Shown here one piece after another: positions 15,780-44,217 of a DNA stretch of 44,217 bases. The stretch lies in the IMG/VR virus record IMGVR_UViG_3300042430_002005, positions 1 through 44,217 of that record. One strand, 5' to 3'. The notes beneath the pieces are model-generated. The model ran no database searches. It saw nothing but the letters and a program-made list of their open reading frames with translations, and was not told the origin of the DNA. The position numbers and the translations under genes are program-made. The stretch's first letter is position 1. Each line of letters begins with the position of its first letter. The DNA comes from a virus.

Positions 15780-16249
15780 TGACTAGAGAAGAATTAATAA
15801 ACAAAGGGAGTAGCGGCGTTCGGAACAACGCTACTCTTTTTGCTTTATTTAAAGAATTTTTAATCGAAGATTGGGGCGGAATTCCAGAGGGATGCTTCGG
15901 ATGCCAATTTTCCACAACTTTTGAAAGATGGCAAAGGCAGGTGTTATCTGGAACAACAAAAGAAACAATTTTACAAAAAAAAGACACAGACATGAATACT
16001 TACATTTTAAAAGATAAACATTTCAAAACCTATTTTAAAGGCGAGGTTTTGAGCGCAAACAGTTCAGATGCTGAATGGAAAGAGTTTTTAGAAAAGAGTG
16101 AAGAAAACAAGGCTAGATTTTTAGTATTGCCTTCGGAGTTTTCCACACCAAAAGAAAAAGCTGAAGAAGCTATTGTTATTGAAGGGATTGAAAAAAAAAA
16201 CGTGAAATCTACGAAAAAAGCATCTGTAGAAGTTGCTAAATCTAAATAA
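15779..16249 (+). CDS. unknown head-module protein
   Basis: A 156-residue protein. The N-terminal 60 residues contain a Cys pair (GCFGCQFS) and Trp-rich text (LIEDWGGIPEGC). The C-terminal 50 residues are very Lys/Glu/Ala-rich and probably disordered. It overlaps both neighbours by one base (TAATG at each end), so it is tightly coupled to the portal gene. No family recognised. Likely virion or head assembly role from context. Confidence 0.55.
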   Translation: MTREELINKGSSGVRNNATLFALFKEFLIEDWGGIPEGCFGCQFSTTFERWQRQVLSGTTKETILQKKDTDMNTYILKDKHFKTYFKGEVLSANSSDAEWKEFLEKSEENKARFLVLPSEFSTPKEKAEEAIVIEGIEKKNVKSTKKASVEVAKSK

Positions 16250-17412
16250 TGGAAAAGGATAATTCAAATAAATTTTTAATAAAAATTGTCGAACTATTTG
16301 ATAGGGTAATTCCCTTTTCAAAAGAAGAAGGCATTTATAAAAATGATGTTGATAATCTATATCCAAACAGAATAGAAATCACTGAAAAAGATTCGACAAC
16401 CGCTAACAGCTGTTCAAACAAATTAGCTCAGTACATTTACGGAAAAGGATTTGCAAATAAAGAGATAACTTTTTCAAGCAAAAAAGGAGAAAAAATAAAC
16501 CTTAACGATGCTTTGCAAATGGTTGTAAATTCTGTAAAAACGCACAGAGGAGCATTTATACATTTGAATTACGATGTTGAAGGTAAAGTAAACTACTTTG
16601 ATGTTTTAGACTATAAAAAGTGTAGAATATCAAAAGAGGATATGAACGGTTATAGTGGTAATATCATTTACAAAGACTGGAATCAAAAGAAATCCGTTTT
16701 TGATGTAACTAAGAAAAAATACATATTTTTTTATCCGTACAATCCTTTGAATATTAACGCACAAAGAAAAAATGATACCCCAAAGTCTGAACAGATTGAA
16801 GAATTAATCCGTAATTATCGTGGGCAAGTTTTATTTTTATCGTTAGACAATTCAAATGTTTACCCTTATGCGTGGTTGAGCGGACAAAGTGTTTATGATG
16901 CAGATTCAGAATTTCGTTTGTCACTGTACCGTAATAGTTCTATTCGAAAAGGATTTCAAGATAAAACAATGTTTATATTGAATGGATTTGATAAAGAGAC
17001 CTGGAAAGATTTTGACGAAGAAGCTCAAAAATGGTTAGGCTCTGAAAATGCTGGATCAATTTTCACTTTTAAAACTCCAGTATTTTTAGAAAATCCTGAA
17101 AAAGTAATAGTTCCAATTCAATTAAAATCAAGCTACGATTCAAAGAAATTTGAACTGGACGAAAAAGCTTTTGAAAATTCAATCAGAAAATCATATTTGC
17201 AGATACCAAAGATTTTAATTAACGATAATGATGGTGGGATTTTTGGAACATCAGGCGAGGCATTAAAAGACGCTCAAAGAATATACTCAAATGAAACGGC
17301 TTTTATCCGTGAAAAAATAGCTGATACTTTTCAAACTATTTTTGGAATTGAAAATACTATTTTACCGTTGGTAGAAAACGAAACTGTAACACCAATTAAA
17401 AATGAGCTGTAG
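16249..17412 (+). CDS. putative portal protein
   Basis: A 387-residue protein. The text NLYPNRIEITEKDSTTANSC, then LAQYIYGKGF, then HRGAFIHLNYDVEGKVNY and DVLDYKKCRISKED is what portal proteins of Bacteroidota phages show, with the aromatic-rich stem region and a long C-terminal helix with SLYRNSSIRKGFQ. The portal is the dodecameric DNA gate where the terminase docks. Length is normal for the small HK97-like portal class. Its position after the capsid gene is unusual, since portals mostly precede protease and capsid. Confidence 0.68.
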   Translation: MEKDNSNKFLIKIVELFDRVIPFSKEEGIYKNDVDNLYPNRIEITEKDSTTANSCSNKLAQYIYGKGFANKEITFSSKKGEKINLNDALQMVVNSVKTHRGAFIHLNYDVEGKVNYFDVLDYKKCRISKEDMNGYSGNIIYKDWNQKKSVFDVTKKKYIFFYPYNPLNINAQRKNDTPKSEQIEELIRNYRGQVLFLSLDNSNVYPYAWLSGQSVYDADSEFRLSLYRNSSIRKGFQDKTMFILNGFDKETWKDFDEEAQKWLGSENAGSIFTFKTPVFLENPEKVIVPIQLKSSYDSKKFELDEKAFENSIRKSYLQIPKILINDNDGGIFGTSGEALKDAQRIYSNETAFIREKIADTFQTIFGIENTILPLVENETVTPIKNEL

Positions 17413-30245: not shown

Positions 30246-30302
30246 AACCCACCAAAATAAACTAACAAATAACTAGGCTAGAATTTTTTTTGGTGGGTTT
30301 TA
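30246..30302 (+). terminator. hairpin with long loop, possible attenuator
   Basis: AACCCACCAAAA and TTTTGGTGGGTT form a perfect 12-bp stem around a 30-base loop, followed by a short T run and the dut gene. It could stop or reduce transcription before dut. Confidence 0.5.
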
Positions 30303-30313
30303 AAATAAAAATT

Positions 30314-30754
30314 ATGCAAGTAAAATTCATAAAAACACACCCAAATGCAGTCATACCAAAATACGCTAAAGATGGCGATGCTGGACTTGATTTAACAGCC
30401 GTTTCTTGTAAAATAATAGACACCGAACATATTAAATATAATTTTGGGATAGCCGTTGAAATCCCTACTGGTTATGTTGGGTTGATTTTTCCTAGGTCAA
30501 GCTGCTACAAAAAAAGACAACTTATGAGTAATTGCGTCGGGGTTATTGATAGCGGTTATAGAGGAGAAATTTCTACTATAATGTTAGGCACTTCGCAAGA
30601 AAGTTATGATGTAGGCGATAGAGTAGCTCAGTTGATTATAATGCCTTATCCTAACATTGAATTTGTTGAGGTTGCTAAATTATCGGAAAGCGAGCGAGGC
30701 GATAGAGGTTATGGATCAACAGGAAATAAAAACCCTTTCTTCGAACTATCTTAA
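30314..30754 (+). CDS. dut: dUTP diphosphatase
   Basis: A 146-residue trimeric dUTPase, cleaving dUTP to dUMP to keep uracil out of DNA. All five motifs are visible: DAGLDLTA (I, about residue 21), PRSSCYKK (II, about 61), GVIDSGYRGEI (III, about 78), GDRVAQLII (IV, about 104) and RGDRGYGSTG (V, about 130). A GTG eight codons upstream lies in the hairpin stem, so ATG at 30314 with an AAAATAAAAATT leader is the better start. Motif II has Cys-Tyr instead of the usual Leu-Ala. Length normal. Confidence 0.93.
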   Translation: MQVKFIKTHPNAVIPKYAKDGDAGLDLTAVSCKIIDTEHIKYNFGIAVEIPTGYVGLIFPRSSCYKKRQLMSNCVGVIDSGYRGEISTIMLGTSQESYDVGDRVAQLIIMPYPNIEFVEVAKLSESERGDRGYGSTGNKNPFFELS

Positions 30755-31137: not shown

Positions 31138-31807
31138 AGAATTACCATATTTTAAATTCGAGCCAAACCAATGGGAAAACGGTAATATCCAAATGCTTTC
31201 AAGAGAAGATAAGGGACTGTTTATTGATTTGTGTTCTATGTATTGGTCAAGAACTGGAGATGTGCCTTTTAAACTAGCAATTCAAAAGTTATGCGCTGGC
31301 AATGCGACCGCATTAAATCCGCTTTGCGAAGATAAAATAATTGAAATAATAGATAGCAATATTTATATAAAATTTCTAAGCGAACAGCTTAATGAATTTG
31401 AAGATACGAGCAAACAAAATTCAAAAAATGCCAAAGAAGGTTGGGTAAAACGTCGTAAACAAAGGGAGGAAAGCGAGCGCAATGCGACCGCATTAAATCC
31501 GCAATGCGAAAACGATGCCATAAGAGAAGAGAAGAGAAGAGAAGAGAAGATAAAAGAAGAGAAAATAAAAGAAGAGAAAAGAGTAAATAAATTTACTCCT
31601 CCCACAATTTTAGAAGTTGAGGTTTATTTTGTCGAAAATGGATATAGCAAACAATCAGGGGCAAAAGCCTTTAATTATTATAACGTTGCGGATTGGAAAG
31701 ATAGCAACGGCAAACAGGTTAGGAATTGGAAGCAGAAAATGCAGTCTGTTTGGTTTAAAGACGAAAATAAAATAAATGTCAAACCTTTCTTTGATTCACC
31801 AGCATAA
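31130..31807 (+). CDS. replication initiator-like protein (DUF1376/Lin1244 type)
   Basis: A 225-residue protein. A start 30 bases upstream is possible, but MAKELPYFKFEPNQW is the typical opening. Residues 1-110 match the DUF1376/Lin1244-like N-terminal winged helix of phage replication proteins (QMLSREDKGLFIDLCSMYW). Residues 125-160 are a low-complexity Arg/Glu/Lys linker. The C-terminal 65 residues (VEVYFVENGYSKQSGAKAF, then WKDSNGKQVRNWKQKM) match the domain known from such proteins near helicase loaders. It carries two copies of the repeat NATALNPxCE, encoded by a near-perfect 30-base DNA repeat. Confidence 0.75.
   Translation: MAKELPYFKFEPNQWENGNIQMLSREDKGLFIDLCSMYWSRTGDVPFKLAIQKLCAGNATALNPLCEDKIIEIIDSNIYIKFLSEQLNEFEDTSKQNSKNAKEGWVKRRKQREESERNATALNPQCENDAIREEKRREEKIKEEKIKEEKRVNKFTPPTILEVEVYFVENGYSKQSGAKAFNYYNVADWKDSNGKQVRNWKQKMQSVWFKDENKINVKPFFDSPA
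31301..31330 (+). repeat. iteron-like repeat, copy 1
   Basis: Begins with AATGCGACCGCATT, a 6+2+6 palindrome, followed by AAATCCGC and TTTGCGAA. It recurs at 31481 with two changes in 30 bases. Both copies are exactly 180 bases apart and inside the initiator-like gene. Confidence 0.6.
31481..31510 (+). repeat. iteron-like repeat, copy 2
   Basis: The same palindrome AATGCGACCGCATT and AAATCCGC, then AATGCGAA. Immediately downstream (31518-31590) lies a purine-only or nearly purine-only tract made of AAGAG units, then an AT-rich stretch. This is the layout of phage origins that lie inside the initiator gene. Confidence 0.6.
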
Positions 31808-33597
31808 TGAAAAATATACACAATTGGTCATTAATTGAGACAACAAAGGTTTCAGGAACTGCAAAAATAAAATGTCCTATTTGCACACCAACAAGAAAAA
31901 ACAAAACCGATAAATCATTAATGGTTTGGTTTAACAATGGTACAGCAAAATGTTTTAATGATTCGTGTAACGCTTTATTTTTTCGTGATAGTATTGAAAA
32001 ATCGGTAAAAGAAAACAATTATACTTTGCCAGTTCAAAATTGGAAAAATTATACCTCGCTGTCCGATGCACTTATAAAATATTGCGAAATAGAACGCAAA
32101 ATAAATCAATTCACTTTAAAGCATTTTGAGGTAACAGAAGAGAAATTTTATCAACCTGCATTGCAAAAAGAAGTTAACAATATTGTTTTTAATTATTTTG
32201 AAAGTGAAACTTTGGTTAATAAAAAATACCGTTCAGGTAACAAAAAATTCACACAATCAAAAAATGGTAAACCAATTTTCTACAATATAAATTCAATTAT
32301 TGGCGAAAAAAGTTGCTACATTGTGGAGGGAGAATTTGATGTTTTGGCACTTTATGAAATTGGAATAAAAAATGTGATTTCAATTCCGAACGGTGCAAAT
32401 GATAATGACAATTATTGGGTTAATTCTGAAAAATACCTTTCCGAAATTGAAAAATTTTATATTGCTACTGATAACGACGAAAGCGGAAACAATGTAGCGG
32501 AAAAGATAGCGCAAAGGCTTGGACGTTACCGATGCGTTCGTATTTTATTTGAAAACAAAGATGCAAACGGAGATTTAATTGCAGGAATTTTAAACGAAAG
32601 TATTTACAAAATTAAAAAATACCCAATTTCAGGAACTTTCACATCTGTAGATTTACAGGATAAAATGATTACTCTTTACGAAAATGGTTTACCAAGTTGT
32701 TTGGAGGTTAAAAATAAATCATTTGGGGACTTTAATAAGATTTTCAAATTAATGCTTGGTCACCTTTGTGTTGGTACTGGAATACCATCACACGGAAAAT
32801 CAAATTTTACTGAATGGTTAGTTTTGAATTATCTTTTAGAAAACGATTTAAAAGCAAGTTTTTTCAGTCCGGAACATCAACCGATGGAATTGCATATGAG
32901 TAGTTTTTGCCAAAAAATTATAGGTAAAAATTATTTTTATGGTACAAATGAAAACCCAAAATGTTCTAAAGATGAGGTTTTGCAGTTTATTAATTGGTCC
33001 AACGAAAAATTATATTTGACTTCGCCAGATGCAGGTGATTTTGCAAATTGGGACTGGTTAATGGATAAATTTAAAGAGCAACTTTTTAATTTCGGAATAA
33101 ATATTTTCGTAATTGATGCTTATAATAAAGTGGAACATACAGGAAACAGAACCGAAAGGGAAAATATATCAAAAGTACTTTCACGTTTGGCATCGTTTGC
33201 TCAACAAAATAACGTTTTGATTATTTTGGTAGCGCACCCGACCAAAATGAAAAAAGAAAACGGAATTTACGAAAAACCTACCTTATACGATGTATCTGGT
33301 AGTGCTGACTTCAGAAACCAAACGCACGATGGTTTTTGTGTCTATCGATATTTCGGAGACGATGGTTATACCACTTTTACGAATTTAAAAATAAAATATA
33401 TCTTTCAGGGAGAAATAGGAAAAACAGTAGATTTCAATTATCATATACAATCTGGAAGATACTACGTGAATCAACCACAAACAAATAATTTGCTAGAAAA
33501 TAGCGAAATTTTAGAACTTAAAGAACGTTTAGTTTATGGGAGTTTGACTGATGCTTTTGGCGATATTTACAGCGATTCCGACGAAATTTTATTTTAA
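31807..33597 (+). CDS. DNA primase-helicase (Toprim + DnaB-like)
   Basis: A 596-residue bifunctional protein like T7 gp4 and Twinkle. Zinc ribbon at about 18-60 (IKCPICTPTRK, then KCFNDSCNALF). Toprim at about 170-270 with CYIVEGEFDVLAL and YIATDNDESGN. Helicase domain with Walker A GIPSHGKSNF at about 327 and Walker B FVIDAYNKVE at about 433; VAHPTKM near 476 is the sensor-type motif. It makes primers and unwinds DNA at the phage fork. The start overlaps the stop of the initiator gene (TAATG). No DNA polymerase follows, so host polymerase is probably used. Confidence 0.9.
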   Translation: MKNIHNWSLIETTKVSGTAKIKCPICTPTRKNKTDKSLMVWFNNGTAKCFNDSCNALFFRDSIEKSVKENNYTLPVQNWKNYTSLSDALIKYCEIERKINQFTLKHFEVTEEKFYQPALQKEVNNIVFNYFESETLVNKKYRSGNKKFTQSKNGKPIFYNINSIIGEKSCYIVEGEFDVLALYEIGIKNVISIPNGANDNDNYWVNSEKYLSEIEKFYIATDNDESGNNVAEKIAQRLGRYRCVRILFENKDANGDLIAGILNESIYKIKKYPISGTFTSVDLQDKMITLYENGLPSCLEVKNKSFGDFNKIFKLMLGHLCVGTGIPSHGKSNFTEWLVLNYLLENDLKASFFSPEHQPMELHMSSFCQKIIGKNYFYGTNENPKCSKDEVLQFINWSNEKLYLTSPDAGDFANWDWLMDKFKEQLFNFGINIFVIDAYNKVEHTGNRTERENISKVLSRLASFAQQNNVLIILVAHPTKMKKENGIYEKPTLYDVSGSADFRNQTHDGFCVYRYFGDDGYTTFTNLKIKYIFQGEIGKTVDFNYHIQSGRYYVNQPQTNNLLENSEILELKERLVYGSLTDAFGDIYSDSDEILF

Positions 33598-34059: not shown

Positions 34060-34236
34060 ATGAATTACGAAAAACAAATCGACATCCAACAAAAAGCAAA
34101 TAAAATAATAAAACTTTTCATTGATAATAAAATACCGCTATTCCAACAGCTTGAAATTTTAAAATTAGCAAGGAAAAAAATTGAATTTTGCAGAAAAACT
34201 GGAGCAGAAATTAAACAAAAAACACTTGATTTATGA
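34060..34236 (+). CDS. small helical protein upstream of resolvase
   Basis: A 58-residue Lys/Ile/Gln-rich frame of mostly helical look (IIKLFIDNKIPLFQQLEIL), starting behind an A-rich leader and overlapping the RuvC-like gene by four bases (ATGA). Translational coupling supports expression. Function unknown. Confidence 0.5.
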   Translation: MNYEKQIDIQQKANKIIKLFIDNKIPLFQQLEILKLARKKIEFCRKTGAEIKQKTLDL

Positions 34237-34661
34237 AGAAATTATACATAGGAATCGATCCAGATACAGAAAAAAACGGTGTTGCATATTGGTACACCGA
34301 AACAAAAAAATTAGAACTTGAAAACCTTACTTTTTTTGAGTTGTTCGATGCCCTGAAGAATTTGAAAATAAGAAATCAAATAACAGTAATTATAGACGCA
34401 GGATGGCTGAACAAAACAAACTTTCACGTTTTAGGCACAAATAAGCGTGTTAATGGAAAGATAGGAGAGCGGGTCGGAGCAAATCACGAAACAGGAAAAA
34501 AGATAGCTGAAATGTGCGTTTATTTAGGAATTGAATTTAGGCTAAATAAACCAAACTATAAAAAAGTAGATAAAGAAACATTTGCAAAATTAACAAGATA
34601 TACAGGACGAACAAATCAAGACACCCGAGATGCTGGAATGTTGGTTTATTTGTTAACTTAA
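34233..34661 (+). CDS. RuvC-like Holliday junction resolvase
   Basis: A 142-residue nuclease of the RNase H fold. YIGIDPDTEKNGVAYW at the N-terminus holds the first catalytic Asp, VIIDAGW near residue 68 the second acidic position, and TNQDTRDAGMLVYLL at the C-terminus the last ones. The pattern is that of phage RuvC-like proteins. It would cut branched recombination and replication intermediates before packaging. Length normal for phage versions. It ends the replication operon; a promoter follows. Confidence 0.75.
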   Translation: MKKLYIGIDPDTEKNGVAYWYTETKKLELENLTFFELFDALKNLKIRNQITVIIDAGWLNKTNFHVLGTNKRVNGKIGERVGANHETGKKIAEMCVYLGIEFRLNKPNYKKVDKETFAKLTRYTGRTNQDTRDAGMLVYLLT

Positions 34662-36475: not shown

Positions 36476-36646
36476 ATGTCAAATTTTAAAAAAGAAACGA
36501 GAGGAGGAAAACGTGCTTTCTCAGGCCGCAAAAAAGCAGATTATCAAACTAAAACTATTGCATTTCGTGTTCGTCTCGAATTTGTCGAACCGATTAAAAA
36601 AATGGTAAAGGATTATGTTTCGGAGCGTTTGCAGGGTGACGCATAA
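36476..36646 (+). CDS. small RHH-like DNA-binding protein at array edge
   Basis: A 56-residue frame. Residues 9-21 are RGGKRAFSGRKKA, a basic tail. Residues 26-52 (TKTIAFRVRLEFVEPIKKMV) look like a ribbon-helix-helix strand and helix. Its stop codon TAA at 36644-36646 overlaps the left core GCATAAC of the first attC site. So it is either the last phage backbone gene or the cargo of the first cassette. The related peptide at 35978 favours phage origin. Confidence 0.6.
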   Translation: MSNFKKETRGGKRAFSGRKKADYQTKTIAFRVRLEFVEPIKKMVKDYVSERLQGDA

Positions 36647-36771
36647 CGTTCCCTCGCTTGGCGAGGTTGCTGACTTCGGAAAAATAAATATCAATTTTAA
36701 ACAAAATATTATGCGAAACGTAAATGTGAATGAACCACAAAGTCAGCAATCTTGCCAAACGAGTGTTAGTA
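36641..36771 (+). repeat. attC site 1
   Basis: Left core GCATAAC, right core GTTAGTA. Arms CTCGCTTGGCGAGG and TTGCTGACTT pair with AAGTCAGCAA and TCTTGCCAAACGAG. It contains the ATG (36711) of the following cassette gene. No GTTATGC partner for its left core was found upstream, so the array's left border is not a simple cassette junction. Confidence 0.8.
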
Positions 36772-36993: not shown

Positions 36994-37304
36994 TAGGTGG
37001 CTTTTCCGAAGAAGATGAATTACAGGCAGTTTTTTTAATTCAGGCATTTTCAGAAATCACTTTTAATAAAAGAAGAAGAAAACTTCAAGAAATTACAGGT
37101 TTTATTGATGGAGGTTGTGGCTCTTACGAAGAATACAATGAATGTGGTGTTTGGAGAATAATTGTTACAGGATATTTCAATGATTTGGAAGAATTGAAAT
37201 TAGTAATAAAAAAAATGGAAAAATACAATTGGGCATATCTTTCGGACTCACATATTCTTTTTGAAGATAATTATTTATTTTCTTCAGGAGAATGGCTTGT
37301 GTAA
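36930..37304 (+). CDS. cassette 2 protein, start inside attC 2
   Basis: A 124-residue protein. The first 20 residues (through DTCDNNV) are attC-encoded; the cassette part begins LVGGFSEEDELQAVF. It is alpha-beta with a Gly/Cys turn (GFIDGGCGSYEEYNECG) and LEELKLVIKKMEKYNW. The crossover triplet is again read as Val. The leader before ATG is A-rich (AAGACAGAACA). No family recognised. Confidence 0.6.
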   Translation: MKKETDNSVKKQNDTCDNNVLVGGFSEEDELQAVFLIQAFSEITFNKRRRKLQEITGFIDGGCGSYEEYNECGVWRIIVTGYFNDLEELKLVIKKMEKYNWAYLSDSHILFEDNYLFSSGEWLV

Positions 37305-37362
37305 CAAAACCATTTAAAAATTAACCCAACTATTGTATAGCGAATATTAGCAGTAGTTATAA
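37304..37362 (+). repeat. degenerate attC site 3
   Basis: A left core-like ACAAAAC and a right core-like GTTATAA, 59 bases end to end. The internal arms do not pair, so it seems decayed. What follows up to attC 4 holds no gene. Confidence 0.3.
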
Positions 37363-37386: not shown

Positions 37387-37520
37387 AGATAACGTTCGAG
37401 TGCTTGCCGTTCGGTGGCAATTTCAATACCGAAGCTAACAAAATAGTAACAAACATTAAATAAGCCGAAATATTTCGGACACAACCCAAGCCTGCCACTG
37501 ACGGCAAACACTTGTTAGCG
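37387..37520 (+). repeat. attC site 4
   Basis: Left core AGATAAC, right core GTTAGCG. Arm GAGTGCTTGCCGTTCGGTGG pairs with CCACTGACGGCAAACACTT, with unpaired bases as is normal for attC. Confidence 0.8.
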
Positions 37521-37585
37521 GTTCGGTTTTTACACGGTTTAACTTCTTCGCCGTTTCAAATTGGAAGTAATAAAAATTAAATATT

Positions 37586-37876
37586 ATGTCAGAAATTAAA
37601 GAATCAAAAGATTTTATTAGAGGTGTTTTTCAAAAAGCAAAAAATCAATCTAATAAAAAGTTAGTTGTAATTTATGTTACAAAAGAGCAAAAAGAAATTC
37701 ACAGAGATTGGAATCCTGTTTATATTCCTGTTGAAACAAATCTAATTACGTTTAAAAATATTGACGCTTCTAATATTTTTGGAGATTTAAAAGAAACATT
37801 ATTCTATGTTGCCAATGTAGAGTATCAAGTTCCTTCCGTTGTTATTATTACGTTGCTTGGTCAAACTGACCGCTAA
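37586..37876 (+). CDS. cassette 4 protein, unknown
   Basis: A 96-residue protein with its own start and A-rich leader (AAATTAAATATT) 65 bases after the crossover. It is alpha-beta (KLVVIYVTKEQKEIHRDW, then FKNIDASNIFGDLKETLFYV). Its stop codon overlaps the left core of attC 5. No family recognised. Own start, unlike the attC-started genes. Confidence 0.65.
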   Translation: MSEIKESKDFIRGVFQKAKNQSNKKLVVIYVTKEQKEIHRDWNPVYIPVETNLITFKNIDASNIFGDLKETLFYVANVEYQVPSVVIITLLGQTDR

Positions 37877-38002
37877 CGTTTCTCGGCTTGAAGCAGTGGC
37901 AAACTTCGGAAACGTAAATTTTCCGTTACTACTGAATTTCTTTCGAAAGATAAACGTGATTAAACCACATATTTTGCCATTGCTTTCAAACCGATGTTAG
38001 CG
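37871..38002 (+). repeat. attC site 5
   Basis: Left core CGCTAAC is perfectly complementary to the cassette start GTTAGCG at 37514. Right core GTTAGCG. Arm CGGCTTGAAGCAGTGGCAAA pairs with TTTGCCATTGCTTTCAAACCG-like text. Confidence 0.85.
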
Positions 38003-38095
38003 CTAGTTGTGGGTTGTTAAAAATAATTCACTTTTTATTTGTTTATTACGTCTATTATACGTTACTTTGTCGTATAATATTAAAACATAGAAATT

Positions 38096-38371
38096 ATGTA
38101 TAAAGTACAATTGTTAGCAAAAGGAGATTATGAAATCAAAAGTCTTGAAGATAAAAGTATGCTTCAAGCCGTTAATGTTTTTGATGTTTGGTTAAAAGAA
38201 GACGCTTTTGATGGGGAAGTATTGTTATTGTGGGATAACGATAATTTGATTAAAGAGATTAATGTTAGAAAAAAATCAGATTGGAGGCACGGAGAAACAT
38301 ATAAAGACATTGATGAAGAGTTTTTTAAAAAAGATATAAGAAAATGGAAAAAGAAAATAGCAAGTTGTTAA
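38096..38371 (+). CDS. cassette 5 protein A, unknown
   Basis: A 91-residue protein with Asp/Lys-rich beta-like text (DVWLKEDAFDGEVLLLWDND) and a basic helical end (FFKKDIRKWKKKIASC). Upstream, at 38036-38080, ATTTG and TTACTTTG spaced about 20 bases look like a weak Bacteroidota promoter, so this cassette may bring its own. It overlaps the following small gene by 28 bases. Confidence 0.6.
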   Translation: MYKVQLLAKGDYEIKSLEDKSMLQAVNVFDVWLKEDAFDGEVLLLWDNDNLIKEINVRKKSDWRHGETYKDIDEEFFKKDIRKWKKKIASC

Positions 38372-38511
38372 GGATAGAAATGCAATTAACGGAAGAGGAA
38401 GTCGCAATTATAGAACAGATTGCAAAGGAAGAAAGCCGTTCCCGTAAAAAACAATGTGAGGTTTACATTCGTAAGATGATTTCCGATTATAAACGTAAAC
38501 GTAGCAATTAG
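38344..38511 (+). CDS. cassette 5 protein B, RHH-like
   Basis: A 55-residue protein. MQLTEEEVAIIEQIAKEESR followed by SRKKQCEVYIRKMISDYKRK has the strand-helix-helix rhythm and basic residues of small Arc/RHH or mobilisation-type DNA-binding proteins. It overlaps the gene before it by 28 bases in another frame, making this the only clear two-gene cassette. A toxin-antitoxin or regulator pair is possible. Its stop lies at the left core of attC 6. Confidence 0.6.
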   Translation: MEKENSKLLRIEMQLTEEEVAIIEQIAKEESRSRKKQCEVYIRKMISDYKRKRSN

Positions 38512-38642
38512 TGCTAACGTTCAAGCATTGCCGAAGTTGGGGATTTTGAAAACCAAATGTTCAATTTAGCAATAAAGTTTAATAGTAGTATAAAAGTTCA
38601 ATTAACCACATCTGCCCCAATTTTGGCAATGCAATGTTAGCA
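38512..38642 (+). repeat. attC site 6
   Basis: Left core TGCTAAC matches the cassette start GTTAGCG at 6 of 7; outside the core the complementarity goes on (TTAGTGCTAAC with GTTAGCGCTAG). Right core GTTAGCA. Arm AGCATTGCCGAAGTTGGGG pairs with CCCCAATTTTGGCAATGC. Confidence 0.85.
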
Positions 38643-38681
38643 GTAGCCTTTTTTCGGTCGGCGTATAAAACAAATAATAAA

Positions 38682-39086
38682 ATGAAAAATGTAGATTTTC
38701 TAAAAGAAGTTTTAATGTCAGATGCAGAATACTGGATTGTGGCAAAAGAAGTAAAGGTAAATAGAGGATTTCGTCCAGAAAGAGAAAAAGACCATATAAT
38801 GTTTATTGCAATACCTAAAGATATAAAAAGAGGTTTGAAATACGAAGAAATTACTTTACAAGAACTTGAAAAACTTAATAGAAGTTATTGCGAACAAAAC
38901 ATTTATATAAATACTGATTATCCTCCATTTCAGCTTTATGGTAAATTTTCAGATATTTATACAGGATTTCCAGTAACTCACAAAATAAGGCAATTTATGT
39001 TAGATGCTTTGGCTTTAGGGTCAGATGAAATTTGGAAATATAAAGAGTTAATTCAAGTTCCTGATGCTGTCGAGGTGTCTGCATAA
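38682..39086 (+). CDS. cassette 6 protein, unknown
   Basis: A 134-residue protein. An in-frame ATG exists at the crossover (38634), but the ATG at 38682 after AAATAATAAA is preferred. It contains MSDAEYWIVAKEVKVNRGFRP, FIAIPKDIKRGLKYEEITLQ and INTDYPPFQLYGKFSD, an alpha-beta protein with conserved-looking Pro/Tyr patches. No family recognised. A typical integron cassette protein of unknown role. Confidence 0.65.
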   Translation: MKNVDFLKEVLMSDAEYWIVAKEVKVNRGFRPEREKDHIMFIAIPKDIKRGLKYEEITLQELEKLNRSYCEQNIYINTDYPPFQLYGKFSDIYTGFPVTHKIRQFMLDALALGSDEIWKYKELIQVPDAVEVSA

Positions 39087-39092
39087 GGTTAC

Positions 39093-39227
39093 TGCTAACG
39101 TTAAAGCATATACGCAGTTACGGATTAAGTAAATCCTAATCATCTAATTAAACAACAATAAAACCAAGTACAAACAAATACTATAAATCAAGACTATTGC
39201 CGTAATTGCTTATATGCAGTGTTAGCA
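39093..39227 (+). repeat. attC site 7
   Basis: Left core TGCTAAC perfectly matches the cassette start GTTAGCA at 38636, and the match extends outward (AAGGTTACTGCTAAC with GTTAGCAGTAGCCTT). Right core GTTAGCA. Arm GCATATACGCAGTTACGG pairs with CCGTAATTGCTTATATGC. Confidence 0.88.
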
Positions 39228-39251
39228 GTAGTTATTTTAAACACAAACTAA

Positions 39252-39440
39252 ATGGAAAAGAAATTTATAATTTACAATTTTATGACAAAATCATTCTATT
39301 GTGGGAATTACGGAACTATACTTGAATGGAGTATAGATTTTTATAATGCAGAATTTTATTCTGATAAAGAAGATGCTGAAAGATACATTTCAACTCTTTC
39401 TGATGGATTGTATCAAATTATCGAGGTCTATCGCCCATAA
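39252..39440 (+). CDS. cassette 7 protein, unknown
   Basis: A 62-residue protein starting 30 bases after the crossover with a short leader (CACAAACTAA). Its text KKFIIYNFMTKSFYCGNYGT, then DKEDAERYISTLSDGLYQII resembles small proteins in which the Asp/Glu and aromatic residues alternate in an alpha-beta fold. Unknown function. The smallest fully self-started cassette here. Confidence 0.6.
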   Translation: MEKKFIIYNFMTKSFYCGNYGTILEWSIDFYNAEFYSDKEDAERYISTLSDGLYQIIEVYRP

Positions 39441-39444
39441 TTAC

Positions 39445-39576
39445 TGGTAACGGTTCTCGGCTTTGCGATGGTGGGGAAATCGAAGCCGAAATTTTCAGCC
39501 CACCACTAAACTTAAATAGAAGTACAAATGATTGATATAGCACTAAAGCCCCACTATTGCAAAACCGATGTTAGCG
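39445..39576 (+). repeat. attC site 8
   Basis: Left core TGGTAAC matches the cassette start GTTAGCA at 6 of 7, continuing outward (AATTACTGGTAAC). Right core GTTAGCG. Arm CGGCTTTGCGATGGTGGGG pairs with CCCCACTATTGCAAAACCG. Nearly the same as attC 16. It carries the ATG of the following methyltransferase at 39528. Confidence 0.88.
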
Positions 39577-40211
39577 GAAGTCCTTCATCGGAATTGTTCA
39601 ATATGGATTGTATTGCAGGAATGAAACATTATCCTGATAAATATTTTGATTTAGCAATAGTTGACCCTCCTTATGGATTAGGTTCAAAATTGGCTCACGC
39701 TGGCAATGGTAAAAATTCACAGTCTAAATTTACGGATGATTTTAAATTGAAAAATTGGGATAATCAAATACCACATTATGAATATTTTATTGAATTGTTT
39801 AGGGTATCTAAAAATCAAATCATTTGGGGCGGAAACTATTTTTTAGACCATTTACCATCAACTCGTGGATTTATAACTTGGGATAAAATGGTTTTCATTC
39901 CTACAATGTCAAGAATAGAGATGGCGTGGACTTCATTTGATAAACTACCATTGCTAGTTCAAATAAATAACAATGATGCAAATAGAATACATTTAACGCA
40001 GAAGCCGATTAAGTTATATGATAGATGTATTGATTACGCAAAATTAGAAGCAGGAAGCAAAATTTTAGATACTCATTTAGGTTCTGGTTCAAGTAGAATA
40101 TCGGCATATTTCAATAAAATGAATTTTGTCGGTTTTGAGGTAGATACTGAATATTGTGAAATGTCAAACAAAAGATTTAATAATGATGTCGCTCAGATGC
40201 GGTTGTTTTAG
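39528..40211 (+). CDS. DNA adenine/N4-cytosine methyltransferase, start inside attC 8
   Basis: A 227-residue AdoMet-dependent DNA methylase of the beta order: catalytic motif IV DPPYGLGSK at about residue 47, the target region in the middle, and the AdoMet-binding ILDTHLGSGSSRI near 182 at the end. The conserved family start (ELFNMDCIAGM) follows the crossover closely, and the only good upstream ATG lies in attC 8, which gives the leader MIDIALKPHYCKTDVSGS. Solitary methylase, no nuclease beside it, so probably a guard against host restriction. Length normal. Confidence 0.85.
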   Translation: MIDIALKPHYCKTDVSGSPSSELFNMDCIAGMKHYPDKYFDLAIVDPPYGLGSKLAHAGNGKNSQSKFTDDFKLKNWDNQIPHYEYFIELFRVSKNQIIWGGNYFLDHLPSTRGFITWDKMVFIPTMSRIEMAWTSFDKLPLLVQINNNDANRIHLTQKPIKLYDRCIDYAKLEAGSKILDTHLGSGSSRISAYFNKMNFVGFEVDTEYCEMSNKRFNNDVAQMRLF

Positions 40212-40217
40212 GATTAC

Positions 40218-40311
40218 CGCTAACGGTTTGCGGCTTGGCGAAGGCTGCCTAACGGAAAGTTCAAAGTTCACAGAATGTTTAATGGCAGCTTTTGCCAAAC
40301 CGCTGTTATGT
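40218..40311 (+). repeat. attC site 9 (short, 94 bp)
   Basis: Left core CGCTAAC is perfectly complementary to the cassette start GTTAGCG at 39570. Right core GTTATGT. Arm TTTGCGGCTTGGCGAAGGCT pairs with AGCTTTTGCCAAACCGCTG-like text. Shortest clear site. Confidence 0.88.
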
Positions 40312-40350
40312 GCTGGGCGGTTTATCAGCACTAAATTTAATTTAAGAAGA

Positions 40351-40515
40351 ATGTCAGTAGAAGAATTAATTAGAGCATTAGAAAAAATGCCAAAAGACAA
40401 AATAGTAGTTGTAACCGAACCTGATGGAATTGGTTGGGATAACATTGGACAAGTGATTGAAGATGGTAGCACGGTTAAAATCACAATGGATGGAAATCAT
40501 CCTTTTGAAGACTAA
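40351..40515 (+). CDS. cassette 9 protein, unknown small
   Basis: A 54-residue protein starting after AATTTAAGAAGA. Its text MSVEELIRALEKMPKDKIVV, then GIGWDNIGQVIEDGSTVKIT looks like a small alpha-beta fold known to occur in phages and plasmids (ELIxxLxxxPxDxxVxI). A longer in-frame opening starts in attC 9 (ATG at 40281) and would add 23 residues, the attC-derived ones again. Function unknown. Confidence 0.6.
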   Translation: MSVEELIRALEKMPKDKIVVVTEPDGIGWDNIGQVIEDGSTVKITMDGNHPFED

Positions 40516-40528
40516 TGTATAACCTTGC

Positions 40529-40654
40529 ACATAACGTTCCGCAGCTACACGAGGTGCAAGGCTTCGTGACTGCATATTTTCTATTTAAGATAAAAGTTCA
40601 ATGCGAAACGGCAATTCCACTAAATCCTTGCATCTTGTGTAACTGCTGTTGGCA
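40529..40654 (+). repeat. attC site 10
   Basis: Left core ACATAAC is perfectly complementary to the cassette start GTTATGT at 40305, an uncommon core shared by no other cassette here. Right core GTTGGCA. Arm GCAGCTACACGAGGTGCAAGG pairs with CCTTGCATCTTGTGTAACTGC-like text. Confidence 0.88.
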
Positions 40655-40722
40655 GACGGTTTTATTATTCGGTTTAACTTTCACACCGATTTTAAGTGAA
40701 AGTAAATTTAAAACTATTTATT

Positions 40723-40815
40723 ATGTCTTTTAAAAAACTTATTATTTTAGATTTTGTGTTTTCACTGGTATCTTTAGCGCTTGCTTTTTTAATTTTTTAT
40801 CTTTTTGATTTGTAA
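40723..40815 (+). CDS. 30-residue hydrophobic peptide
   Basis: A short frame with a basic start and one hydrophobic span (MSFKKLIILDFVFSLVSLAL). It overlaps, in antisense, the 3' end of the membrane protein gene at 40742-41221. It has an ATTTATT leader. It may be a cassette peptide or only a by-product of the antisense gene's membrane-coding sequence. Confidence 0.3.
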   Translation: MSFKKLIILDFVFSLVSLALAFLIFYLFDL

Positions 40816-41221
40816 AAAACAACATACCAGACCAAAAAAGTATTCTAAAAATTGTTGATATGATACCAATTCTAATTAATTCTTTAAAGCACAATTTTAA
40901 TTCATATGAAATATATGTTAGAAATGAAACCCAGAATAAAGCTATAATTCCTAATACCGCTATTAATTTTTCATATTGAAATCCTTTTATTTCATTTGGG
41001 TAGTTTGTCGTAAATATCATAAACAAAACTAAAGGTACTATATTTAGCAATAACCAGCAAACTGTTAAAGATAAACACACGCCTATTATTTCTAATGAAC
41101 TTTTTTTTAAAATATTTTCTTTAAATAAATATAATTGCAAAAAACATATGAATGTAATTCCTATAATTGATAATAATGCGTTTTTTTGTTTTGATTCTAT
41201 TTCAAATATATCTTTTATCAT
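40742..41221 (-). CDS. reverse-oriented cassette membrane protein
   Basis: A 159-residue protein with four likely membrane spans (about 15-33, 43-71, 84-106 and 115-137) and a basic C-terminal tail (NQKDKKLKKQALKIPVKTQN). It is the only minus-strand gene with good support. The cassette would be read against the array, so it needs its own promoter; I find no clear TAnnTTTG on that strand. The leader before its ATG is A/T-rich. Reverse-oriented cassettes are often toxin-antitoxin or stress genes, but nothing specific is seen. Confidence 0.65.
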   Translation of the reverse strand: MIKDIFEIESKQKNALLSIIGITFICFLQLYLFKENILKKSSLEIIGVCLSLTVCWLLLNIVPLVLFMIFTTNYPNEIKGFQYEKLIAVLGIIALFWVSFLTYISYELKLCFKELIRIGIISTIFRILFWSGMLFFTNQKDKKLKKQALKIPVKTQNLK

Positions 41222-41270
41222 AAAGTTAATATTTAATTTTTTTATTTACCACGTTTTTTTCTAAACTGTC

Positions 41271-41277
41271 TGCCAAC
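41271..41277 (+). repeat. attC site 11, left core only
   Basis: TGCCAAC is perfectly complementary to the cassette start GTTGGCA at 40648, and the match extends (GTCTGCCAACTAGCAG with CTGTTGGCAGAC). So the antisense gene is a true cassette. The right half of this attC was not found; the region 41278-41407 holds A/T-rich text and a run of 19 A instead. Confidence 0.6.
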
Positions 41278-41386
41278 TAGCAGATATACGCACCCTAAAA
41301 TCAACTATTTAAAAAACAGAACGTTAAGAAAAAAATAATGTTAACGAAATCTTAAAAAATAAAAATTTGAAAAATTACATCCAAAT

Positions 41387-41405
41387 AAAAAAAAAAAAAA
41401 AAAAA
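41387..41405 (+). repeat. poly-A run of 19
   Basis: Nineteen A directly before CAATGG, the start of the gene at 41408. It lies where the lost right half of attC 11 should be. It may aid initiation in this A-rich system, or mark a deletion or an unreliable stretch of sequence. Confidence 0.7.
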
Positions 41406-41407
41406 CA

Positions 41408-41767
41408 ATGGAACTTAAAGATTTTAAACAACACATTGAAAGTTTTCCAAACGGAACAAAATTTGAATTTGGTATCTCTCAACCTTTTTCTTGGAGAGGT
41501 GTATATGCCGAAGTAGCATTTGAAATGCTTGAAAAACCAATGACAAAAGAAGAAATTCTAGCAAATATCGAACTTGCTTACACAGAAACTTTTTACGGAT
41601 ATAAAGGTGGAGAATACAGATACAATGACCATACAGATATTCATTTTGAAACTGATTGCGGTAGTTGGACTGCCGGTGGTTATGTTTCTCGTTGGATTGC
41701 TAAAATTGAAGAAAAAGAAGAGTACCAAAGTCAAGAGGATAGACTTGTTAAGTTAGCGTTCGCCTAA
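41408..41767 (+). CDS. cassette 11 protein, unknown
   Basis: A 119-residue protein. NGTKFEFGISQPFSWRGVYAE is followed by KPMTKEEILANIELAYTETF, GYKGGEYRYNDHTDIHFETD and GSWTAGGYVSRWIAKIEEKE. I recall related proteins from phages and mobile elements with the same order (SWRGxYxEVAF, then GYKGGEYxYxDxTxVHFE). Function unknown. It starts directly after the poly-A run. Confidence 0.65.
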   Translation: MELKDFKQHIESFPNGTKFEFGISQPFSWRGVYAEVAFEMLEKPMTKEEILANIELAYTETFYGYKGGEYRYNDHTDIHFETDCGSWTAGGYVSRWIAKIEEKEEYQSQEDRLVKLAFA

Positions 41768-41773
41768 AATGGC

Positions 41774-41905
41774 TTATAACGTTTTCGGGCTTGGCGAAGG
41801 GCAGGAATTAGAAAACGAAATTATCAATTAAAAATAAAATTATGTTAGAAAACGAAAACATCAATAAACCACAGAACCCCGCCTTTTTGGTAGGTGCTGT
41901 TATAA
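41774..41905 (+). repeat. attC site 12
   Basis: Left core TTATAAC, right core GTTATAA. Left arm GGGCTTGGCGAAGGGCAGG is shared with sites 13 and 15; the right arm is more divergent (CCCCGCCTTTTTGGTAGG). It holds the start codon of the next gene at 41842. Confidence 0.75.
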
Positions 41906-42048
41906 GCCGTACTTATCATTTCATGGATTGGGTAGATGGGAAACACGTTGATGAAATGATAAAGGCAGTTAATAGAGAAACCGCTATTAAGCAAATGAAA
42001 GTTAAATACCCAAACCACGATTTTGCTTATGTGTGTGAGTTGTCTTAG
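41842..42048 (+). CDS. cassette 12 protein, start inside attC 12
   Basis: A 68-residue protein. The first 19 residues (MLENENINKPQNPAFLVGA) are attC-encoded, the crossover gives Val, and the cassette part begins ISRTYHFMDWVDGKHVDEMI. The latter reads like a small alpha-beta protein (AVNRETAIKQMKVKYPNHDF). No start is present in the cassette before ATG codons inside the conserved-looking part. Leader TAAAAATAAAATT. Function unknown. Confidence 0.6.
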   Translation: MLENENINKPQNPAFLVGAVISRTYHFMDWVDGKHVDEMIKAVNRETAIKQMKVKYPNHDFAYVCELS

Positions 42049-42054
42049 TATGGC

Positions 42055-42187
42055 TTATAACGTTTTCGGGCTTGGCGAAGTGGCGGATTAGAAAGCACAA
42101 AAGCTGAATAAACCACGAAAGTTTCAAAAAAGCACCAAAGTTCAAATATAGCACTATCGCCACCATTTTGGCAAACCCTTGTTAGCG
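42055..42187 (+). repeat. attC site 13
   Basis: Left core TTATAAC perfectly matches the cassette start GTTATAA at 41899. Right core GTTAGCG. Arm GGGCTTGGCGAAGTGGCG pairs with CGCCACCATTTTGGCAAACC. Confidence 0.88.
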
Positions 42188-42234
42188 GTAGTACTTTTTT
42201 AATCATAGGGTTTGTCAAACTAAATAATTTAAAA

Positions 42235-42579
42235 ATGGCAACAATAATTAATGCAGGTTCTGAAAATAAAGGAGGAACTTTTGAACAGGCAAAAATAAAT
42301 GCAGAAAAATGGTTAAACAATATTCACGAAGAAGGATTTTTAGAAGTAGAAATGACTTTTGTTCAACAACATAAAGATGGTGATTTCCAATTTGATTTTA
42401 AACATACGGTTACTCAAAAAACTGTTTCGTTGGAAATTCACGGATTTACGGAAGAAGAGTGTCAAAAGTTTAGATTTAATCCACGAGTATATTGGAATGG
42501 ATCGTCAACTGCTGACCCAAAAATAGAAGACTGGTTAAACGAAGGCTTTAAATATCGTGTCGAGTATTACAGGTCGTAG
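42235..42579 (+). CDS. cassette 13 protein, unknown
   Basis: A 114-residue protein with own start after TAATTTAAAA. Text NAGSENKGGTFEQAKINAEK, then EVEMTFVQQHKDGDFQFDFK and EIHGFTEEECQKFRFNPRVYW suggests an alpha-beta protein. The reading frame is open from the crossover (GTT) into the gene, in the valine phase, although the attC itself gives no start in that frame. Function unknown. Confidence 0.65.
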   Translation: MATIINAGSENKGGTFEQAKINAEKWLNNIHEEGFLEVEMTFVQQHKDGDFQFDFKHTVTQKTVSLEIHGFTEEECQKFRFNPRVYWNGSSTADPKIEDWLNEGFKYRVEYYRS

Positions 42580-42585
42580 TATTAC

Positions 42586-42718
42586 CGCTAACGTCCGCCC
42601 AGCTTTGCGAAGGCAGGGATTAGGATTCCAAATGTTGAATATTCGCACAATGCCAAATAGTAGTACTGGTGTTGAGTTTACCACTACTGCCCTGCTTTTG
42701 CAAAACTGGCTGTTATAT
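42586..42718 (+). repeat. attC site 14
   Basis: Left core CGCTAAC perfectly matches the cassette start GTTAGCG at 42181, extending outward (GTAGTATTACCGCTAAC with GTTAGCGGTAGTAC). Right core GTTATAT. Arm CAGCTTTGCGAAGGCAGGG pairs with CCCTGCTTTTGCAAAACTG. Confidence 0.88.
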
Positions 42719-42768
42719 GCCGTTTTTGTTTGCAGTCAAATTTTTAACTTTTAAATAATAAGAATAAA

Positions 42769-43017
42769 ATGAGTAAAGCAATTAAAGAACATTTAAAACA
42801 AATATCCGCACAAGAATTAAAAAAATTTAGGAGCGAAATATATACTGTTTATGCTTCAAGTTCAAGATTAGTAACTAAAATGGGTGTCGTAAAGTTAGGC
42901 ATAAACGGGGAAGGAAAATATGTAGTTATCCAAAGAGTAGAAGAAACCGATTTAATCCACGATTTTAAAAACCCATTGTACGCAATAAAATTTTATCAAA
43001 AGTTGGTGTCTTCTTAA
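42769..43017 (+). CDS. cassette 14 protein, unknown
   Basis: An 82-residue protein with own start after AATAAGAATAAA. First third is a Lys-rich helix (KEHLKQISAQELKKFRSEI); the remainder is beta-like (YTVYASSSRLVTKMGVVKLG, then KYVVIQRVEETDLIHDF). Unknown function. Stop codon close to attC 15. Confidence 0.65.
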   Translation: MSKAIKEHLKQISAQELKKFRSEIYTVYASSSRLVTKMGVVKLGINGEGKYVVIQRVEETDLIHDFKNPLYAIKFYQKLVSS

Positions 43018-43023
43018 AATGGC

Positions 43024-43149
43024 ATATAACGTTTTCGGGCTTGGCGAAGTGGCTGAACCCGAAGCTAAATAGAATTACTAAACTTTAAAATTAAAAACGA
43101 ATGATTGATAGAATTACTGAACAGCCATTTTGCCAAACACGTGTTACAG
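43024..43149 (+). repeat. attC site 15
   Basis: Left core ATATAAC perfectly matches the cassette start GTTATAT at 42712. Right core GTTACAG. Arm GGGCTTGGCGAAGTGGCTG pairs with CAGCCATTTTGCCAAACAC. It carries the ATG of the next methyltransferase at 43101. Confidence 0.88.
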
Positions 43150-44081
43150 GCAGTACGGGTTTAAATGTACTATCACTTTTCGACGGTATGTCTTGTGGTC
43201 AATTAGCCTTACAAAAGGCAGGAATAAAAGTTAATCAATACTTTGCAAGTGAAATAAAACCACACGCAATAAAAGTAACTCAACATAATTTTCCTAATAC
43301 AATACAATTAGGTAGCGTATTAGATGTAGAAGCAAGTGATTTGCCTAAAATTGATTTAATGATAGGTGGAAGCCCTTGTCAAGATTTTAGTTCAGCTAAT
43401 AAAGAAAAATTAGGATTACAAGGCGAAAAATCAGGATTGTTTTATGAGTATTTAAGACTTTTAAAAGAATGTCAGCCAAAATACTTTTTACTTGAAAATG
43501 TGGCAATGGATGATTATAGCTATGCAGCAATAAGTGAAATGCTTGGAACTTATCCAACAAACATAAATAGTGAGCTTGTATCAGGGCAATTAAGACAAAG
43601 AAGCTATTGGACTAATATAGGTCCAGAAAGTTTTGATTTATTTGGTAATAGATATTCAATGATACCACAACCGAGAAACAAAAAAATAAAGTTTCAAGAT
43701 TTATTAGAGAATGGATATACAGATAGATTAAAAGCAAGGTGCTTACTTGAAAGTGAAAGTAGAAATCCGGGTAGTACATTTTCATCATTAAGAAGATATA
43801 TGATACAAGGATTTATAAATGTAATTTTCAAGGATAAAGAAACTTACGAAAAGTATTCTAAAATGACCGAAGATGAAATGAAAGCAAATTTTGTTGATGG
43901 CGATATTAGAAAACTAAACCAAACAGAAATGGAACGATTACAAACAGTACCCAATGGATATACAAGTATTCTAAAAAGAAATGAAGCAGCTTGCTTATTG
44001 GGCGATGGTTGGACAGTTGATACTATTGCACATATTTTTTCATTCATAGAAGTAGAATGTTTAAATTATGCACATTCGTAG
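43101..44081 (+). CDS. DNA cytosine-5 methyltransferase, start inside attC 15
   Basis: A 326-residue C5-methylase. Motif I LSLFDGMSCGQLAL (about residue 24), motif IV GGSPCQDFS with catalytic Cys (about 92), motif VI LLENV (about 131), motif VIII LRQRSYW (about 164) and motif X LGDGWTVDTIAH near the end. The family start (NVLSLFDG) is only a few codons after the crossover; the leader MIDRITEQPFCQTRVTGS comes from attC 15. No start codon exists between crossover and motif I except by losing the motif. Probably protects DNA from host restriction. Confidence 0.88.
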   Translation: MIDRITEQPFCQTRVTGSTGLNVLSLFDGMSCGQLALQKAGIKVNQYFASEIKPHAIKVTQHNFPNTIQLGSVLDVEASDLPKIDLMIGGSPCQDFSSANKEKLGLQGEKSGLFYEYLRLLKECQPKYFLLENVAMDDYSYAAISEMLGTYPTNINSELVSGQLRQRSYWTNIGPESFDLFGNRYSMIPQPRNKKIKFQDLLENGYTDRLKARCLLESESRNPGSTFSSLRRYMIQGFINVIFKDKETYEKYSKMTEDEMKANFVDGDIRKLNQTEMERLQTVPNGYTSILKRNEAACLLGDGWTVDTIAHIFSFIEVECLNYAHS

Positions 44082-44087
44082 TATTGC

Positions 44088-44217
44088 CTGTAACGTTAAA
44101 CGGCTTTGCGATGGTGGGGAAATCGAAGCCGAAAAGTTTAATTTATTACTAATGTTTAATCAAGGTACAAATGTTTGTTTTAGCACTAAAGCCCCACTAT
44201 TGCAAAACCGATGTTAC
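44088..44217 (+). repeat. attC site 16, cut by window end
   Basis: Left core CTGTAAC perfectly matches the cassette start GTTACAG at 43143. Arm CGGCTTTGCGATGGTGGGG pairs with CCCCACTATTGCAAAACCG, the same arms as attC 8. The window ends inside the right core, GTTAC. Confidence 0.88.
44171..44217 (+). CDS. start of a next cassette gene inside attC 16 (partial)
   Basis: An ATG at the same place as the methylase start in attC 8 opens a frame MFVLALKPHYCKTDV, in the valine phase, that runs off the window. Twelve of the fifteen residues are shared with the attC 8 leader. If the next cassette is in frame, it would use this start. Confidence 0.45.
   Translation, partial: MFVLALKPHYCKTDV

Follow-up and report, generated by a model that had tools for sequence, protein, structure and literature searches.

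Gene cassettes with paired 15-nt arms in a Bacteroidota phage and their link to a XerA-like recombinase

Which enzyme moves the gene cassettes of a phage that carries no recombinase for them? The question is raised by a stretch of 44,217 nt (IMG/VR record IMGVR_UViG_3300042430_002005), analyzed at its full length and called the window here. It comes from a Bacteroidota phage, most likely one with a host in the genus Flavobacterium, and contains two arrays of mobile gene cassettes. The phage genes that we list span 1170–34661 on the plus strand and encode a terminase (1170–2480), tape measure (8089–11658), portal (16249–17412), dUTPase (30290–30754), primase/helicase (31807–33597) and Holliday junction resolvase (34233–34661). 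The arrays contain 13 attC-type sites, long hairpins with a core, an inverse core and a folding body in which 18 pairs covary. The window held no IntI-type integrase with the specific insertion, although one may lie outside this record fragment, and no recombinase for the cassettes, which is presumably supplied by the host. With 13 sites in a fragment of a record, the window is a CALIN by definition (at least two attC sites, no nearby integron integrase). A search of the window against Rfam at gathering thresholds gave no match.

The original prediction was that seven bases at the start of each cassette pair with the left core of its attC. Re-reading the cores bore this out: pairing is 7/7 in nine of 11 cassettes and 6/7 in the other two (cassettes 2 and 4). 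Within cassettes, 42 of the 44 bases at the four variable positions of the core match (shuffle mean 23.4, p = 7e-6), a score that is also the maximum among 300,000 shuffles. The two cores of an array site pair no better than chance (26 of 48 matches; shuffle mean 24.7, p = 0.41), and the comparison of cassette-wise, array-site and shuffled pairings proposed at the outset therefore comes out in favor of the cassettes. Beyond the core, 61 of 77 bases match at positions 8–14 (shuffle mean 30.8, shuffle maximum 54). Watson–Crick matches among the 11 cassettes number 11, 11, 11, 11, 10, 11, 10, 11, 10, 9, 0 and 11 at positions 1–12 and 10, 10, 8, 0, 3, 1, 0, 4, 5, 1, 2 and 1 at positions 13–24. This profile therefore describes an arm of constant length, 15 nt, in which position 11 is almost always G·T, and chance level beyond; an extension of 5–10 bases past the core had been anticipated, and the extension stands, but its length is fixed, not variable. 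Two intervals, both already absent from the cassettes originally listed, break the arm rule: that from site A to site B (4/7) and the stretch before site 8, whose own start was not found. Folding favors the own-arm site in nine of the 11 window cassettes and not in two.

The 15-nt rule extends to 90 other phage cassettes and to bacterial cassettes, examined as two sets (n = 80 each). The phage profile was drawn from 198 matches, leaving out other-strand echoes, end-cut rows and the weakest rows; about eight of 180 matches, cut or weak, were left out of the first bacterial profile, and later counts left out one of 115 rows in one set and one of 68 in another. Pairs joined over a missed site were kept in the profiles and lower the match counts. 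IntI-linked arrays resemble the window in pairing their own arms past the core, to about 11 nt, and the 15-nt form is absent from them. This test used Pseudomonadota arrays, with one orientation per locus, in place of class 1 integrons, which gave too few cassettes to serve as a control (six rows, both strands).

Comparison between phages provides stronger evidence for recombination than core pairing does. Phage isolates that are otherwise nearly identical differ by precisely one 506-bp unit cut at the left core, with an overlap of just 7 nt there and no spread over the attC homology, and homology blocks stop at the left core. These exact-unit differences and homology ends give good support to the earlier idea of site-specific recombination of independent units. 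To say that pairing "proves" it, with circles "inserted one by one", went too far, because pairing tells only that each unit keeps both of its own arms; the mode and time of insertion cannot be read from it. A phage unit consists of an attC body, a gene and a left core. The exact cut at the left core therefore means that in phages the attC comes ahead of its gene, opposite to the order in bacteria. The attC originally taken as each cassette's own was the wrong neighbor, since exchange at the left core puts the attC upstream of the gene. The ratio of attC-first to gene-first cassettes is 110:4 in phages, a count that includes near-identical contigs (e.g., L011/L012 and L019/L020/L023), and 10:73 and 5:71 in bacteria, where the order fits the classical one of gene, then attC. 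An ATG lies within the attC in 38 of 120 sites with seed sites left out (67 of 150 with them, a count inflated by the search seed).

Laid out in such units, array I has at its left edge attC-type site A (GCATAAC ... GTTAGTA; 36641–36771), followed by site B (AGATAAC ... GTTAGCG; 37387–37520), each with a left core that has no partner arm; all sites and units of both arrays are on the plus strand. Unit 1 (37394–37877) has an attC body, its right core at 37514, a gene at 37586–37876 and its left core at 37871–37877, and its arms pair 7/7 with a bulged extension. After their attC bodies, unit 2 (37878–38518) has its right core at 37996, gene at 38096–38371 and left core at 38512 (6/7); unit 3 (38519–39099) its right core at 38636, gene at 38682–39086 (or from 38634) and left core at 39093; and unit 4 (39100–39451) its right core at 39221, gene at 39252–39440 and left core at 39445 (6/7). 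The body of unit 5 (39452–40224; right core 39570, left core 40218) contains an in-frame ATG at 39528, the start of a gene for an N6/N4 adenine-type DNA methyltransferase (39528–40211, plus strand). Unit 6 (40225–40535) comprises a body, right core at 40305, gene at 40351–40515 and left core at 40529. Unit 7 (40536–41277), the last of array I, comprises a body, right core at 40648, a gene on the minus strand (40742–41221) and a left core (41271–41277) that no attC follows. Beyond this core lies an attI-like flank (41278–41320, plus strand; TAGCAGATATACGC...) with only a loose likeness to bacterial attI.

The left edge of array II is attC-type site 8 (TTATAAC ... GTTATAA; 41774–41905). Each of the units that follow again begins with its attC body: unit 9 (41781–42061; right core 41899, short gene 41842–42048, left core 42055), unit 10 (42062–42592; right core 42181, gene 42235–42579, left core 42586), whose product has weak similarity to YonK, and unit 11 (42593–43030; right core 42712, gene 42769–43017, left core 43024). 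Unit 12 (43031–44094; right core 43143, left core 44088–44094) has an in-frame ATG in its body at 43101, where a gene for a C5 cytosine DNA methyltransferase starts (43101–44081, plus strand). The record ends within attC-type site 12 (44088–44217), interrupting its right core.

Window-type attC sites are present in 150 of 395 genomes of the phylum Bacteroidota, and the recombinase linked to them is a XerA-like tyrosine recombinase with an alignment gap at the IntI-specific insertion. It scores 197–222 bits against TIGR02249, below the 265-bit cut-off, and 201–234 bits against the NCBIfam XerA model, around the cut-off of 220; among solved structures, XerA 5hxy is the closest to it (182 bits in one stretch). 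Genomes with both the recombinase and window-type attC number 86 of the 395 (40.6 expected, p = 3e-26), and 64 of the 150 attC-bearing genomes have no recombinase match at threshold. The original prediction had implied an ordinary integron, which does not agree with a different attC family and a linked recombinase that lacks the IntI insertion.

The recombinase gene lies upstream of the arrays. The sites near it all share its strand and, with one exception, lie downstream, both at 25 loci picked with sites in view and at 20 picked without. No sites were found near the recombinase in eight of the 20 unselected loci, three of which had 7.7–8 kb of room, and in the genomes G444, G602, G795 and G592 recombinase and sites lie on one contig, either oriented differently or at a long distance from each other. 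At 32 of 35 loci, cassette 1 as located by the 15-nt rule falls no more than 124 nt from the stop codon of the recombinase gene, and the conserved motif before it is the predicted attI (32 of 35 bacterial recombinase loci). The attI search left out L430, with its low-scoring recombinase; L346 and L408, array-edge recombinases that are more distant relatives, are in the geometry counts and not in alignment A3. The predicted attI belongs to bacterial loci, and the window has only the attI-like end.

Taking together the observed arm rule, site family, recombinase association and geometry, and exact gain or loss of units in isolates, we regard as probable a cassette system with unit-borne 15-nt arms, most likely recombined by a host XerA-like enzyme. 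Each unit brings two arms of its own, one of the form GTTRRRY + 3 nt + G + 4 nt, the other its complement, with a T facing the G. The arms are separated in the array, since the two arms at any array site come from different units; in an excised circle, a form that presumably exists, they would meet and lengthen the outer stem of the folded attC, and the enzyme may read the mismatch at position 11. That enzyme would most likely be a host member of the XerA-like family, which has an N-terminal extension but lacks the IntI-specific insertion, and we infer that it carries out the reaction and acts in trans on phage arrays. Many Bacteroidota have the recombinase gene, then within about 100 nt a predicted attI, then an array of the window attC family. 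In bacteria the genes point away from attI and are followed by their attC, whereas phages show the opposite polarity, with an attC ahead of the gene, often giving the start codon, and an array reading toward the attI-like end.

The window could instead be an ordinary integron fragment, in which a host IntI acts on standard attC sites and the XerA-like gene plays no part. The sites agree with attC in core, inverse core, length and folding, and IntI is frequent in Bacteroidota (105 of 395 genomes). Moreover, according to Qi et al. 2023 (PMC9892861), five of six attC sites from virulent phages work with IntI1 (two of the phages are not Bacteroidota phages), and IntI could therefore also act on window-like sites. 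We nevertheless think a role for IntI unlikely. Window-type attC and IntI occur together in 28 of the 395 genomes against 41.0 expected, and among genomes with at least seven window-type sites two have IntI against 6.6 expected. Search R1 for window-type attC matched nothing at 20 IntI-linked loci of Bacteroidota, and none of the nine genomes first traced via such sites has IntI above the cut-off. It is the XerA-like recombinase that is physically linked to the sites, with a fixed geometry and a predicted attI.

Two further readings have less to recommend them. That the 15-nt pairing serves RNA, as a panhandle around each gene, is very improbable: the fixed mismatch would be a G-U pair on the phage sense strand, which RNA tolerates, but polarity speaks against it, because the mismatch follows the attC and not the gene, and bacterial sense RNA would put A opposite C. 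The arms also coincide with recombination boundaries. Ordinary homologous recombination among repeats is hardly credible, as is an artifact of assembly that fused a bacterial array to a phage, even though the sites are repeats that resemble one another and the end of the record cuts one of them. Where the isolates differ, the overlap is just the 7 nt of the core and does not extend across the attC homology, the arms are unit-specific, the site family is also carried by Flavobacterium phage isolates whose records are given as complete genomes, and the polarity of phage cassettes is rare among bacterial ones.

The XerA-linked system that we favor resembles integrons in its cassette arrays, in attC sites whose cores read RYYYAAC and GTTRRRY and whose body folds and, at bacterial loci, in a tyrosine recombinase adjoining the insertion site. 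It differs in a recombinase without the IntI insertion, in 15-nt arms with a fixed mismatch, in an attI behind the recombinase stop codon, and in phage attC sites that lie ahead of the gene and exchange at the left core, where a classical cassette exchanges at the right core. From the XerA, XerC and XerD recombinases, this family is set apart by its N-terminal extension and by lying next to attC arrays that come with a predicted attI. Xer/dif modules, compared by description, have short two-armed dif-like sites at their ends, unlike the long hairpins of the window. Qi et al. 2023 (PMC9892861) report integrase-less attC clusters in temperate and virulent phages, one with a Polaribacter host, find methyltransferases among the cassettes and propose cassette transfer by phages; in the text available, those sites are tied to IntI and tested with IntI1, and 15-nt arms, another recombinase and attC-first units are not mentioned. 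Muminvirus phages of Flavobacterium, which are distinct from the window, carry the window attC family. In the accessible part of their report (PMC7077304), plating efficiency tracks a methyltransferase gene, with no mention there of cassettes or attC. We found no description of this XerA-like cassette system in the open-access literature searched, and the presence of window-type cassettes beside a non-IntI recombinase in many Bacteroidota points to an overlooked relative of integrons.

More broadly, we lean toward a second cassette-capture system apart from IntI integrons, common in Bacteroidota and using a XerA-like enzyme, with bacterial and phage pools of opposite polarity; integrase-less phage arrays with their own attI-like end would swap methyltransferase and other cassettes via the host enzyme, the attC serving as translation start. 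Integron integrases are thought to owe recombination of single-stranded, folded sites to the I2 helix (PMC7790495). If true, a widespread attC-type system with a recombinase lacking an I2-type insertion would call that idea into question or limit its reach. IntegronFinder 2.0 is reported to have identified one complete integron in a Bacteroidetes genome of RefSeq (PMC9024848), and the XerA-like system could account for integrase-less attC clusters in Bacteroidota. Phages would gain a way to exchange restriction-evasion genes, in agreement with the report that plating of Flavobacterium phages follows one methyltransferase gene (PMC7077304).

For class 1 cassettes, it has long been known that the two cores of a cassette pair more fully with each other than do the two cores of an array site. 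The original observation of core pairing within the window cassettes was confirmed and sharpened. Among the 11 cassettes with both arms (the 15-nt stretches at the two ends of one cassette), nine paired at 7/7 core positions and two at 6/7. Own pairing reached 42 of 44 variable core positions compared with 23.4 expected from shuffled pairings, and the two cores within an array site paired at chance (P = 0.41). The match noted beyond the core was present; rather than a variable 5–10 bases, it reaches 15 nt in nearly all cassettes, with chance-level matching from position 16 onward. Position 11 was unmatched in every window cassette, with G on the start arm in 10 of 11 and T opposite on the other arm. 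The deviation of cassette 1 from this pattern looks like a one-base bulge. Own-arm sites folded more favorably than array sites in nine of 11 units and less favorably in two, an advantage partly built in, as arms pair by definition. A degenerate-looking site (GTGTAAC ... ATTAGCA; 37298–37360) lies between the first two attC-type sites of array I, A and B, and may be the reason that the A–B interval departs from the arm rule.

The window is an entire IMG/VR virus record (44,217 bases) with phage genes for terminase, portal, tape measure, dUTPase, primase/helicase, and Holliday junction resolvase. Its 13 attC-like sites occupy the stretch from 36.6 kb onward to the end, and the kinds of tyrosine recombinase that were searched for were absent. 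Flavobacterium phages made up 51 of the 83 phage records with DNA resembling its array. A covariance model built on the 13 sites (R1) found the same family in related viral contigs, in Flavobacterium phage isolates, and in Bacteroidota contigs gathered via a DNA pattern. Matches at arm positions 1–16 were 90, 90, 90, 87, 82, 80, 77, 80, 77, 57, 2, 74, 69, 68, 53, and 17 in phages (n = 90); 80, 80, 80, 77, 75, 73, 68, 74, 68, 52, 3, 60, 63, 60, 49, and 9 in bacteria (n = 80); and 80, 80, 80, 78, 72, 73, 74, 74, 76, 53, 1, 65, 71, 63, 61, and 9 in clustered bacterial arrays (n = 80). IntI-linked arrays, with sites read by an independent site finder, also showed own-arm pairing beyond the core, but it fell near chance past about position 11 in both Pseudomonadota (76 cassettes, 10 of 20 loci) and Bacteroidota (63 cassettes, 14 of 20 loci). 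Own-arm pairing past the core is thus a general cassette property, and the 15-nt arm with its fixed mismatch is particular to the window-type attC family. The original interpretation is supported in part: site-specific recombination stands, an ordinary integron does not, and units are bounded at the opposite side of attC. A search by title and abstract of the open-access literature outside bioRxiv returned no description of 15-nt arms or of attC arrays accompanied by a recombinase other than IntI, weakly suggesting novelty.

Array regions of the Flavobacterium phage isolates mumin6-1 and mumin6-3 were 99.9% identical apart from one 506-bp unit, whose junctions shared only TAACGTT, the left-core end plus the first body bases. 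Two further isolates, tooticki and filifjonk, differed from mumin by additional units, and the blocks stopped at left cores or no more than about 30 nt away. Mumin, tooticki, and filifjonk all had a single version of the right flank past the last core. The window cytosine methyltransferase unit matched other phage contigs at 84%–96%. Of the seven closest contigs, five had a match that stopped exactly at 44094, the last left-core base, and the other two had matches that stopped at 44096 and 44115. These matches extended back into the upstream attC. Judged from these junctions and homology ends, the phage unit spans the interval between successive left cores, with attC ahead of its gene. This accounts for the lack of an attC behind cassette 7, the terminal unit of array I. 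A matched arm likewise ended 30 distinct arrays among 42 phage loci, window included, and the sequence past it loosely resembled bacterial attI.

Gene direction relative to attC was one way in phages (110 of 114) and the opposite way in bacteria (73 of 83 and 71 of 76), and the position-11 mismatch follows attC polarity. Bacterial contigs L107, L143, and L156 have cassettes with phage polarity and are possibly prophages. The cassette 7 gene (40742–41221), the sole window unit running against the others, has bacterial polarity and may derive from the bacterial cassette pool. The phage attC often provides a start codon: an ATG inside attC opened a frame of at least 60 codons past the core at 38 of 120 phage sites outside the search seeds, compared with four of 266 bacterial sites. 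Both window methyltransferase frames (units 5 and 12) start in this way, inside the preceding attC and through the core (39528–39576; 43101–43149).

At the edge of the array, DNA surrounding attC clusters encoded a tyrosine recombinase with Phage_integrase and SAM_4 domains, an N-terminal extension, and an alignment gap at the place of the IntI insertion. We surveyed 395 genomes from the phylum of a Flavobacterium, 150 of which had window-type attC. IntI (TIGR02249) was over cut-off in 105 and at E ≤ 1e-45 or better in 108, of which 28 had window-type attC, below the 41.0 expected. The recombinase profile hit 107 genomes at E ≤ 1e-75, of which 86 had window-type attC (40.6 expected), and 38 at E ≤ 1e-120, of which 35 did. 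Shared ancestry can inflate such co-occurrence, and physical linkage therefore weighs more. Across 25 loci chosen with sites in view and 20 chosen without, every attC site was on the recombinase strand and all but one were downstream; sites were present at 12 of the latter 20. The 105 genomes with true IntI (within G407–G799) were far above expectation from the IntegronFinder 2.0 survey, which covered complete RefSeq genomes (PMC9024848). In G781, stop codons break the recombinase gene (L353, 15945–16870) ahead of a large array; arrays can thus outlast their recombinase. One genome has a reverse transcriptase gene between recombinase and array (L346, 9145–10674), similar to antiviral Drt4 (114 bits, below the Drt4 cut-off).

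Behind each recombinase, we used the arm rule to seek the partner arm that the first attC lacks. The predicted attI partner arm lay 13–124 nt past the recombinase stop codon in 32 of 35 loci (67–124 nt in 30 of these), preceded by conserved bases (TATAAAC.A|GTT). An inverted repeat was often found there, with an exact arm of six or more in 10 of 32 compared with 7% in shuffles. That a freely placed prediction lands on one conserved spot is our best evidence for arm rule, enzyme, and array belonging together.
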